Shown here piece by piece: positions 50,494-53,776 of a DNA stretch of 64,000 nt (its first letter is position 1; each line of letters opens with the position of its first letter). Made by a program: the position numbers and the translations under genes. The notes beneath the pieces are model-generated. The model was not told the origin of the DNA. It saw nothing but the letters and a program-made list of their open reading frames with translations, and ran no database searches. Source of the stretch: Chloroflexota bacterium. GTDB lineage: Bacteria > Chloroflexota > UBA11872. The DNA lies in the NCBI GenBank assembly GCA_026707585.1, contig JAPOWQ010000029.1:169362-233361 (forward strand), read 5' to 3'.

Positions 50494-52611
50494 TCAGCCG
50501 GCGACCTGGAAGCTGACCTGATGCCAGCCCTCGGCGCCGTTCGGCGCTGGTGGCCTGGGACCTTCCGGTTGGGTTGCCCCGCTGGCGTCGGTCGCGCGCA
50601 CCCTGGCCACGTGCGTGCCCGGTGTCGCCTCCCATTCGTGCACCCACTGCACCCAGGTGTGCTTGCTGATGGGCAACGCCAGCTTCGCTTCCTGCCAGTC
50701 GCCGCCGTCGATCTGCACCTCCACCTTGCTGATGCCGCGGTTCTGCGCCCACGCCACGCCGGCAATCGCCTGCGGGCCCGGCCTGATGCCCGTCGATCCG
50801 GGCCTGGGAACGTCGATGCGCGACTGCGTCTTAACCGGCCCTTGCTTGGACCACCCCCGCGGAATCCAGTAACCGTTGAACCCTTCCCAGGTTGTGAGTT
50901 CGATTTCCTGCAACCACTTCGTGGCGGACACATAGCCGTACAGCCCTGACACAATCAGGCGCGCCGGAAAGCCGTGCTTGAACGGCAGTGGCTCGCCGTT
51001 CATGCCCACCGCGACCAGCGCCGGGCGGCCGTCGAATGCCACCTCGCGTGGAAACCCGACCGTGAAACCGTCAACCGACCGGCCGACGATCTGGGTGGCC
51101 TCAGGCTTCACCCCGGCATGATTGATTAGGTGCCAGATCGGCACCCCTTGCCACGTCGCATTGCCGATCAGGTTTCCGCCCACTTCGTTGGAAACGCAGC
51201 ACAGCGTAATGAACTCCTCAAATACCGAAAGCCCGAGGAGATCGGAGAACGAAATGCTGTACGGACGTTCCACCAGCCCCGTGATGCTGAGTTGCCAGTT
51301 GTTGACGTCGACGCGTGGAATCGAGAACGCGGTGTCAATCCGGTAGAAGTCGTCATTTGGCGTGATCAGCGGCGAAATCCCATCCACCCCAACCGTCGTC
51401 GTTGTCAGCGGCTGGACCGGCGCGGGCGTGGGTTCCGGCGTGGGCTCGGGCGTGGGCTCGGGCGTCGGTTCGGGAGTAGGTTCCGGCGTTGGTTCGGGCG
51501 TTGGTTCGGGCGTCGGCTCGGGCGTGGGCTCGGGCGTCGGTTCCGGGGTCGGTTCCGGGGTGGCCTCGGGCGTCGGCTGGGGTGTGGCTGTTTCCGCGGC
51601 GCTGGCCGGGGCCACGGGCGTGGCTTCGGGCGTCGGAGAAGCTGTGGCCGTCTCCGTGGCGCTGACCACGGTCGCGGGGGTGGCCTCCGCCGTCGCCGTC
51701 GGTGCTGCCGTGGGAGGGGCTGGGGCCGCCGCTGACGGCGTCGCCGCAACCGTCGGGGGCGCCGTCGGCGTGGCCGTCGCCGCGGCACGGGGCAGGCTCG
51801 CGGGCGTCGGCGTCGCGGTCGCCGCGACCGTCGGAGGCGTCAGGCTGGTGGGGGGCGCCAGGCTGGGCGGCGACGGAATCGGCGCGACTGTCGGCGACGC
51901 CGTGGGCGCGGCCGCCTCCGCGGCGCTGGACACCGGCGTTGGGAGCGTCGCCACCGCCGGTCCGCGTACGGTCGGCAACACGACATCCTCTCGCTTCGCT
52001 ACTGATACCTTGGCGCGCTCGATCAGATTGCGTCCGACGACTCCGGTTACGACTGAAGTCGCCGCGACCAGCGTGGCCGTGCCAAGAAACAGTCGTCGCT
52101 GTCGCAGCAGCGGGACGGATAGCGCCGGCGCCGTGGCAGCCGCCGGCTCCCGTGTCAGGCTGATCAGCCACAAGAGGGTCGCCACCCCCGCCCCCACCGA
52201 AATCACGGCTGCGGCCGCCGCATGGGCCGGCGTTGATTGAGCGTCGAAGGCGTTCGCCAGACCGGCCAGGACTCCGAACGCCACGAATCCCGCAACCCCC
52301 GCCGGTCGTGACCGCAGGGCTACGACGCCGAAGGTGGTGCCCAGGATCGCGCTGAGCACTACAAGGAAGATGACCAGGGCCAGCTTGTCGCTGGTGCCGA
52401 AGACGCTGATGGCGAACTCTTCCATGGCCCGTGGACTCAGGTCGACGATTCGGCCGCTCATGGAGACGAGGAGCGACGGCAAACCGCCAAAGACCCCCGC
52501 GTACAGTTCGCTCACACCGATGGCCAGCAGCCCGGACAAAAGCCCCGCCAGGCCACCGCGCGCCAGAACGCTCAACTCGGGGATCCGCCGCCCCGCCCTC
52601 TCGTCAGCCAT
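50494..52611 (-). CDS. Membrane-anchored sulfite-oxidase-like molybdopterin oxidoreductase with PTPE stalk
   Basis: A 705-residue protein. About five membrane helices fill residues 15-195; before the fifth stands a twin-arginine motif (RQRRLFLGT), as in proteins whose last helix is inserted by Tat after Sec inserts the others. Residues about 215-405 are a Pro/Thr/Ala-rich stalk ending in about eleven PEPT units. Then comes the molybdopterin domain (about 415-600) with the Mo-ligand Cys in LCCVSNEVGGNLI, WQGVPI and GFPARLIV, and a C-terminal immunoglobulin-like dimerisation domain (KVEVQIDGGDWQEAKL). It would act outside the membrane on a small oxyanion or sulfoxide. The electron acceptor is unknown. 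Confidence 0.9.
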   Translation of the reverse strand: MADERAGRRIPELSVLARGGLAGLLSGLLAIGVSELYAGVFGGLPSLLVSMSGRIVDLSPRAMEEFAISVFGTSDKLALVIFLVVLSAILGTTFGVVALRSRPAGVAGFVAFGVLAGLANAFDAQSTPAHAAAAAVISVGAGVATLLWLISLTREPAAATAPALSVPLLRQRRLFLGTATLVAATSVVTGVVGRNLIERAKVSVAKREDVVLPTVRGPAVATLPTPVSSAAEAAAPTASPTVAPIPSPPSLAPPTSLTPPTVAATATPTPASLPRAAATATPTAPPTVAATPSAAAPAPPTAAPTATAEATPATVVSATETATASPTPEATPVAPASAAETATPQPTPEATPEPTPEPTPEPTPEPTPEPTPEPTPEPTPEPTPEPTPEPTPEPTPAPVQPLTTTTVGVDGISPLITPNDDFYRIDTAFSIPRVDVNNWQLSITGLVERPYSISFSDLLGLSVFEEFITLCCVSNEVGGNLIGNATWQGVPIWHLINHAGVKPEATQIVGRSVDGFTVGFPREVAFDGRPALVAVGMNGEPLPFKHGFPARLIVSGLYGYVSATKWLQEIELTTWEGFNGYWIPRGWSKQGPVKTQSRIDVPRPGSTGIRPGPQAIAGVAWAQNRGISKVEVQIDGGDWQEAKLALPISKHTWVQWVHEWEATPGTHVARVRATDASGATQPEGPRPPAPNGAEGWHQVSFQVAG
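51424..51570. repeat. 12-bp minisatellite encoding PEPT stalk repeats
   Basis: About eleven to twelve imperfect tandem copies of a 12-base unit (GGTTCGGGCGTC and variants on the plus strand) encode the PEPT repeats of the molybdoenzyme stalk. The units vary at third codon positions, so the array has been kept at protein level rather than freshly expanded, though copy number could still change. Confidence 0.85.
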
Positions 52612-53055
52612 TCGTTCCTCCTAGACGGGCAGTGCTCGCATGCTGTTGTTACGCCCACGTGGCCGGACTGGGTGCTCGCTCCACGGCAGATCCTCGTGGT
52701 TCAGCCTGGTGCGCACGGGCTCTTCTCCGAATCCAACGTTCCGGTCCAGCCACGGCATTAGCTGTCGAACTCACAGGCAGCCGTTACCAACAACCTTGCA
52801 ACACCCGCAGGCCATTCTATGGCCTATCCAATCGCTTCGATTCAGGCTGGGCCAGCAATCGCACTGGCGCGCGACGTGCCATCGCAGCGCTCAAGGGGGC
52901 GCAGCGCGGGTACACCCAGGAGGCTAATGCCCGTACCGCAAGCCGGCGGATTTGACGAATCTTTGGACCTGTAGAATCCTCTGCCCGTGTTGAACGCAGT
53001 GGATCACACGTGCCCGTCATGGTGGCGGGTCCCGCCTACGAAAGGCACTCCTCAC
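52612..53055. other. Divergent intergenic region, no gene seen
   Basis: A 444-base gap between the molybdoenzyme gene (minus) and the Met-rich protein gene (plus). It holds a perfect 17-base inverted repeat at 52809-52825 (AGGCCAT-TCT-ATGGCCT) and a -10-like TAGAAT at 52972-52977, with TTGACG at 52952-52957 but only 14 bases between, too short for a normal promoter. Other frames here are antisense or unsupported. Confidence 0.5.
52809..52825. promoter_or_regulatory. Perfect inverted repeat AGGCCAT-N3-ATGGCCT, possible operator
   Basis: A 7-bp perfect inverted repeat with a 3-base centre, midway between the divergent molybdoenzyme and Met-rich genes. Its placement suits a shared regulator, but the motif does not match one I know. 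Confidence 0.3.
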
Positions 53056-53637
53056 ATGATTCGTTCATTGACTCTACCCGCGCCGTTGCGTGTGCTGATG
53101 CTTCTGACGATCGTCAGCGCATTGGTCCTCGCAACATTCGCTCCCGCACTGGCGGGTATGCATCCGGCCGCCAACGACGGCCAGCGACTTGAAGACCAGT
53201 CGGCAGACGTGCAGGCCACCTATCGCGCGGTCTACGGCGATGACGCCGCGGCCAAGTGGGTCGAAGAACACAACGCCGCGATCGCCATGACCGGCAACAT
53301 GTACTACGACCGCATCGTCGCCGTGGCTAAGGCCCGCATCGAGGCGTCGAAGGCCATGAGCATGGACATGGGCATGGGCGACGACATGAGCATGGGCGAC
53401 GACATGAGCATGGGCGACGACATGAGCATGGGCGACGACATGAAGATGGGCGACGACATGGACATGAGCATGGACATGGACCTGCCCTACCGCATCGCCG
53501 CTGACGTGATTAGTCGTGGCACTGAGAAGGAATTCCTGGCGGGTACCGACGCCGGCGTCCTCTACGGCATCGGGATCTCGGAAGACGAGATCAACAAGAT
53601 GAAGATGGACGACATGTCGATGGGCGACATGATGTAG
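53056..53637 (+). CDS. Exported Met/Asp-rich repeat protein, possible metal-binding
   Basis: A 193-residue protein with a signal peptide (basic MIRSLTLPAPLR, hydrophobic VLMLLTIVSALVLATFA, cleavage after ALA). The mature part has a helical region (VQATYRAVYGDDAAAKWVEEHN), then five MGDD units spaced by MS or MK (53374-53463) and an MDMSMDMDL stretch, a further helical region and a Met/Asp-rich end (KMKMDDMSMGDMM). There are no Cys and few His. Dense Met suggests binding of soft metals such as Cu(I), with Asp adding acidity; this is an inference, and I recognise no family. The start is ATG 53056 after an AAAGG-like region. A strong hairpin follows the gene. Confidence 0.82.
   Translation: MIRSLTLPAPLRVLMLLTIVSALVLATFAPALAGMHPAANDGQRLEDQSADVQATYRAVYGDDAAAKWVEEHNAAIAMTGNMYYDRIVAVAKARIEASKAMSMDMGMGDDMSMGDDMSMGDDMSMGDDMKMGDDMDMSMDMDLPYRIAADVISRGTEKEFLAGTDAGVLYGIGISEDEINKMKMDDMSMGDMM
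53374..53463 (+). repeat. Five 18-bp tandem repeats encoding M-G-D-D units
   Basis: Repeats begin at 53374, 53392, 53410, 53428 and 53446 with an exact 18-base period (ATGGGCGACGACATGAGC). The copies are almost identical at DNA level, which means recent slippage expansion. They form the Met/Asp core of the exported protein. Confidence 0.9.
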
Positions 53638-53664
53638 CGCTGGCTGGGCTTGTCCCGTCCAGTT

Positions 53665-53699
53665 CCGACGCCGGCCGCGCGAGGCGCGGCCGGCGTCGG
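53665..53699 (+). terminator. Perfect 16-bp hairpin after the Met-rich gene
   Basis: CCGACGCCGGCCGCGC and its exact complement flank a GAG loop, starting 28 bases after the stop. It is one of the strongest palindromes in the window. There is no U-run, so it is probably a GC-rich terminator or 3' stabiliser. Confidence 0.6.
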
Positions 53700-53776
53700 G
53701 CGCGTTCTGGTCTGGGCGCGGAATCCGGGGTACGCTTCAAGTAACGACCCAATGCCACCACGCAGAGCCTGAGCGC

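Follow-up and report, generated by a model that had tools for sequence, protein, structure and literature searches.

The window analysed here, a stretch of 64,000 nucleotides from a Chloroflexota bacterium (GCA_026707585.1, contig JAPOWQ010000029.1, positions 169,362 to 233,361), carries two divergent genes. The plus-strand gene, here called METASP, encodes an exported protein rich in methionine and aspartate, and the minus-strand gene encodes a membrane-integrated molybdoenzyme (Table 1). Both the divergent arrangement and the exported, Cys-free Met/Asp-repeat protein had been described in an initial annotation made from the letters alone, and both hold. The METASP gene is real. Its start is supported by the ribosome-binding GAAAGG, which is conserved ahead of the ATG, GTG or TTG start in the orthologues compared, and ratios of nonsynonymous to synonymous substitution rates (dN/dS) of 0.16-0.28 in its modules indicate purifying selection. 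By hydropathy, a hydrophobic signal segment at residues 13-31 is followed by ALA/GM, as in signal peptides of the AxA type. The mature protein contains 15.6% Met and 16.2% Asp, no Cys and few His, and has a net charge of -21. It had been placed in the periplasm; the export signal stands, and the periplasmic location is doubtful, since Chloroflexota are for the most part considered monoderm.

Table 1. Features of the METASP locus, with positions in the window.
Feature	Position	Strand	Basis
METASP, exported Met/Asp-repeat protein, 193 aa	53056..53637 (stop included; coding part to 53634)	+	open reading frame, conserved ribosome-binding site and start, dN/dS
Signal peptide, residues 1-33, predicted cleavage ALA/GM	53056..53154	+	hydropathy; ALA conserved in all orthologues
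Module A (NDGQRLEDQSADVQATYRAVYGDDAAAKWVEEHNAAIAMT)	53173..53292	+	profile matches in 24/251 Chloroflexota genomes; recurrence in other predicted secreted proteins
Module B, first helix (about GNMYYDRIVAVAKARIEA)	53296..53349	+	alignment A4; helix in models
Met/Asp insert (MSMDMGMGDDMSMGDD...MDMSMDMD), turn of module B	53356..53481	+	alignment A4, tandem repeat finder (TRF), composition
Tandem array, 18-bp unit GACATGAGCATGGGCGAC, 5.3 copies	53365..53460	+	TRF, periodicity score
Module B, second half (LPYRIAADVISRGTEKEFLAGTDAGVLYGIGI)	53482..53577	+	profile A3 matches
Met/Asp-rich C-terminal tail (SEDEINKMKMDDMSMGDMM)	53578..53634	+	sequence; conserved in kind in orthologues
Promoter-like TTGACG...TAGAA upstream of METASP	52952..52976	+	intergenic comparison; most orthologues, spacer 14-17
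Inverted repeat AGGCCAT-TCT-ATGGCCT	52809..52825		perfect 7-3-7; only core conserved
Molybdoenzyme, 705 aa, five transmembrane domains (TMDs), RR172-173, TPEP-repeat spacer, catalytic domain of the sulfite oxidase (SUOX) fold	50494..52611	-	Pfam, hydropathy

The two genes are kept together across genomes. We considered 19 genomes of the family (G000-G018; named relatives are Chloroflexi/Chloroflexota metagenome-assembled genomes), and the divergent pair is present in 11 of them (G000, G001, G004-G006, G010, G012, G014, G016-G018; in G005 and G012 a contig end or gap interrupts the array). These belong to two genera, g1 and g2, with two gene contexts. In g1, rseP and ispG flank the pair; in the g2 genomes checked these two genes adjoin each other elsewhere, and the pair stands among other genes. 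Since the pair is kept in these different surroundings, METASP and the enzyme share a history. Relative to paralogues, the enzymes of both genera group in a single clade; together with the 11 paired genomes and the two contexts, this is most simply explained by a pairing that was ancestral to both genera and was moved or retained as one block, some lineages losing METASP later. Neither gene is present in G002 and G013, and neither was seen in G003 (76% complete); in G008 and G015 the status of the pair is cut off by contig ends. No close METASP orthologue without the orthologous enzyme was found in this family.

The enzyme has a clear catalytic domain (Pfam Oxidored_molyb, 6.4e-39), and its best solved relatives are 2ca3/2blf. 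By hydropathy its TMDs lie at residues 15-41, 79-97, 104-122, 132-150 and 174-192, with the twin-arginine pair directly before TMD5. It shares this layout, five TMDs, a twin-arginine before the fifth and a C-terminal molybdenum cofactor domain, with the Sco3746 type. Sco3746 was found to be dual Sec/Tat targeted by reporter fusions and was termed a distant homologue of the separate MsrP/MsrQ proteins (eLife 2017, PMC5449189). Unlike Sco3746, the enzyme has no haem-ligating His pattern, and a long TPEP-repeat spacer separates its TMD5 from the catalytic domain. With MsrP/MsrQ (YedYZ) it shares the SUOX fold, a location outside the cytoplasmic membrane and a Tat-type export motif; it differs in its score of 36.8 bits against a cut-off of 207 (NF003767), in having no separate MsrQ seen adjacent, and in the missing haem His. 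The best NCBIfam scores of the catalytic domain are those for SorA (117.7 bits, cut-off 600) and SoxC (115, cut-off 420), followed by SorT (82.2, cut-off 570); all are below cut-off, those for SorA and SoxC far below, and the enzyme differs from SorA/SoxC also in being membrane-fused.

Two observations concern this enzyme and its relatives. The TPEP/TPTP-repeat spacer (51423-51573, enzyme residues about 351-398) varies in length, and contigs of several relatives end near it. In G075, of a distant Chloroflexota family, an unrelated Met-rich exported reading frame (L219:2069-2533, 16% Met in the mature part, strong ribosome-binding site) is divergent from a Sco3746-type homologue. It is the one immediate case in 84 loci (788 kb), about 0.3 being expected by a crude background rate; hence it is not significant and only suggestive.

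The most distinctive part of METASP is its array. The five units at 53365, 53383, 53401, 53419 and 53437, which together span 53365-53454, have 1, 0, 0, 0 and 2 mismatches to the consensus, respectively (96% by TRF). Their periodicity score is 66, whereas 2000 codon shuffles never gave more than 17. A recent expansion had been proposed, and it is what the sequences indicate, because the array is nearly identical in DNA and copy number differs between close relatives (about 2 to 9 units between species). The initial annotation had also allowed for an assembly artefact; the array is not one, as orthologues in other genomes differ in copy number and the array is short (96 bp). The mature parts of the orthologues contain 13.7-17.7% Met and 15.8-20% Asp, while unit and codons are variable: for the Ser of MSM, the g1 arrays use AGC and those of g2 mainly TCG/TCC, codons that no single base change connects. 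In our reading, selection acts on the Met/Asp pattern of the protein in addition to slippage, because the motif persists while its Ser codons differ and the Met/Asp content is steady.

METASP matched no family in Pfam, NCBIfam or PHROGs, in agreement with the earlier remark that it could not be placed in a known family. AlphaFold2 modelled it with a mean predicted local distance difference test score (pLDDT) of 56, and Foldseek gave no match. The array-free core of modules A and B was modelled as all helical (pLDDT 73), and its best match in the PDB had E=2.6, so that no known fold is recognised; a PDB sequence search with the module profiles gave no convincing relative. Comparison with relatives shows that the mature protein is made up of two small modules, A and B, both undescribed and unnamed. 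Module A (about 40 aa, consensus DGQxL..VQ..Y..YGDDA..W..EHN) occurs across Chloroflexota, in 24 of the 251 genomes sampled, both within the window's class and beyond it. Module B (about 49 aa, ARSGDxxLAxxIAxDVIxRGTxxFLxGTDxGVLYG) was found almost exclusively in the window's order, with 15 genomes and a chance match in a sigma-factor-like protein. Singly or jointly, they recur in other predicted secreted proteins with Ig-like (He_PIG), Fn3, SH3, cupredoxin, kelch and protease-like parts. According to alignment A4, the METASP array interrupts module B at its turn, where SGDADL stands in other members. The homologues L032 and L033 have the A+B head without the array, followed by a long C-terminal part in which an Ig-like domain is recognised in L032. 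L043, from another family of the order, has the unit MMDDD between A and B and in the tail. Independently of function, A and B are unnamed domains, and they would make it possible to annotate the many predicted secreted proteins of these Chloroflexota in which they recur.

Several further proteins carry these modules. L108, L095, L112 and L045 are secreted and combine a Cys-containing CVELND...FAWA domain, module B and a C-terminal HEFWHAVS/HELSHAS segment, which looks like a zinc protease motif; those tested matched no Pfam family. Kinship of module A with the Cys-containing CVELNDLAEA... domain of other B proteins is not significant (hhalign probability 14%), and a match of A3 to the 7rdr tendon repeat was dismissed, as no stretch was significant on its own. 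The large exported proteins L109:4763-6757 and L111:5032-7149 have five similar copies of a CATAWDPADRNIYATDGASLNDVARATRTAFVTVWQ.DAWQRWRWEADCL repeat, resembling an elongated module A, and then module B. In the window's own genome, about 8 kb beyond the window end, L041:5235-5738 encodes a small exported protein with module B and then a likely bacterial SH3 domain (just below cut-off). Module A stands at the C terminus of a DUF7482 protein (L036:8144-9433, G040) and of a protein with a cupredoxin-like domain from another family of the phylum (L091:1-759, G246), and two copies occur in L038:3603-4835 (G007) with a His/Met-rich stretch (HNHGGPNGMHSHPHDGMHSHG), a possible metal site.

We tentatively suggest that METASP serves as a Met-rich sink for oxidants at the cell surface and that the adjacent enzyme perhaps recharges it; we consider this possible, somewhat short of an even chance. 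The signal peptide would direct export of the protein, and modules A and B would perhaps retain it at or close to the outer cell face. The flexible acidic array would hold many solvent-exposed Met ready to be sacrificed to oxidants such as hypohalous acids or peroxides, which a host animal might produce; the source organism is probably a sponge symbiont, possibly of class UBA2235, judging from sample codes and a published demosponge set (PMC8163846). The divergent SUOX-fold enzyme may reduce the resulting Met sulfoxides and thus recharge the sink. The pair would be a Chloroflexota counterpart of MrpX with YedYZ in Azospira and BcrX with BcrQP in Brucella. MrpX and BcrX are MXKDX repeat proteins, Met-rich scavengers of hypochlorous acid encoded with SUOX-fold MsrP-type enzymes (PMC8315932; PMC4623255). 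This precedent, the conserved pairing as functional evidence and the two modules were absent from the initial annotation.

Like MrpX of Azospira suillum and BcrX (TIGR02953), METASP is exported and Met-rich, has repeats of Met and Asp, and is encoded with a SUOX-fold molybdoenzyme. It differs in its unit (MSMGDD instead of MxKDx), in the two extra modules, in its divergent gene with its own promoter-like sequence instead of an operon, and in that no sigma/anti-sigma pair was noticed. Neither METASP nor L043 matched TIGR02953 (cut-off 41 bits) at E<=10, and none of 41 genomes exceeded the cut-off; membership in the MXKDX family is thus ruled out. Since the resemblance is in composition, export and neighbour, not in sequence, METASP may work like these proteins without belonging to them. 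The points in favour, drawn from export signal, composition, gene pairing, enzyme family and membrane topology motifs, are the pair kept in 11 genomes, the Sco3746 layout, the MrpX/BcrX precedent, the absence of Cys, and 14-18% Met in every full-length orthologue.

Other findings weigh against the oxidant sink. G007, G009 and G011 keep the enzyme beside ispG without METASP (in G011 the conserved CCATTCTATGG is followed directly by the ispG upstream region), and therefore the enzyme has another use. The Met/Asp A-B protein L043 has no such enzyme adjacent; together, these loci make a strict two-part system less likely. Of the 121 Chloroflexota genomes sampled, 63 have the enzyme family, mostly without a Met-rich neighbour. 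The enzyme itself scores closer to SorA/SoxC than to MsrP, and it lacks the conserved haem-b histidines that the Sco3746 type has in TMD2-4, with H130 as the only His in residues 1-215. Finally, Asp enrichment is unnecessary for oxidant scavenging.

The main rival is a buffer of soft metals, in line with the soft-metal binder proposed in the initial annotation: the MxM-type array and Asp would bind Cu(I)/Ag(I) outside the cell through many weak joint sites. Soft-metal binding by METASP is plausible from its sequence and the buffering is chemically sound (PMC11840665), yet as an account of the protein we judge it rather unlikely. The Cu5 site of CueO is held by two Asp and two Met, but Asp made no contribution to Cu(I) binding in the same study (PMC11840665). 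The Met-rich Cu(I)-binding regions of CueO are, like METASP, exported and have Met clusters with Asp; METASP, unlike CueO, has almost no His and no multicopper oxidase domain. The module A proteins L091 (Pfam Cupredoxin_1, 3.9e-12) and L038 with its His/Met-rich stretch speak for metal handling. Against it, METASP has few His and no Cys, its conserved neighbour is a molybdoenzyme, and no copper-handling gene was recognised among the g1 and g2 neighbours examined, those of g2 not being profiled systematically. No copper-protein family in Pfam or NCBIfam matched METASP above cut-off.

The acidity of these proteins, with net charges from -16 to -46 and 27% Asp in L043, suits instead a secreted structural, adhesive or calcium-responsive protein, in which A and B would attach to the envelope and the array would be a flexible spacer or a segment binding divalent cations. 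The company that A and B keep, Ig, Fn3, SH3, kelch and protease-like parts, agrees with such a role. However, Asp alone would suffice for it, the steady 14-18% Met is unexplained, and Pfam found no calcium-binding motif, so that we hold it to be unlikely. The same array could also be a near-neutral product of slippage, tolerated at the permissive turn of module B and without a role of its own, as its nearly identical units, its shifting copy number, the array-free L032/L033 and the absence of the METASP gene from some close relatives would allow. This we consider quite improbable: the motifs MSM and MxMGDD/MxMDDD are kept despite the different Ser codons of g1 and g2, L043 has its different unit at another place in the same protein type, and Met and Asp are enriched also in the C-terminal tail and, in g2, in the A-B linker.

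In its widest form, the oxidant sink would make METASP and its Sco3746-type enzyme a self-contained extracellular methionine-cycling oxidant buffer of Chloroflexota, probably of sponge symbionts, built on two undescribed shuffling modules. We regard this whole as doubtful. If true, the pairing of Met-rich scavenger and molybdoenzyme known from proteobacteria would have arisen in a distant phylum too, with unrelated sequences, and there would be a candidate substrate for Sco3746-type enzymes.

The intergenic region gave fewer clues. The promoter-like sequence ahead of METASP was not detected by a strict sigma-70 scan, and Rfam gave only matches far below gathering scores in the region, hence no known riboswitch. 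The inverted repeat, suggested earlier as a possible binding site for a common regulator of both genes, is real and perfect, but it is within chance expectation: repeats with arms of at least 7 and loops of 0-8 occur at 1.36 per kb in the window, so that the 445-bp gap should contain about 0.6 by chance. The outer arms of the repeat show little conservation (G012 also has 7/7), and GCCATAGAATGG occurs once in the genome. A shared operator is rejected on this chance-level frequency, the conservation of the core only and the single occurrence. The core TTCTATGG is conserved in nearly all, including G011, which has no METASP, and can therefore be assigned to the molybdoenzyme side. Read along the minus strand, the core gives CCATAGAAT, which resembles a -10 box, and it is more likely part of the enzyme's promoter.
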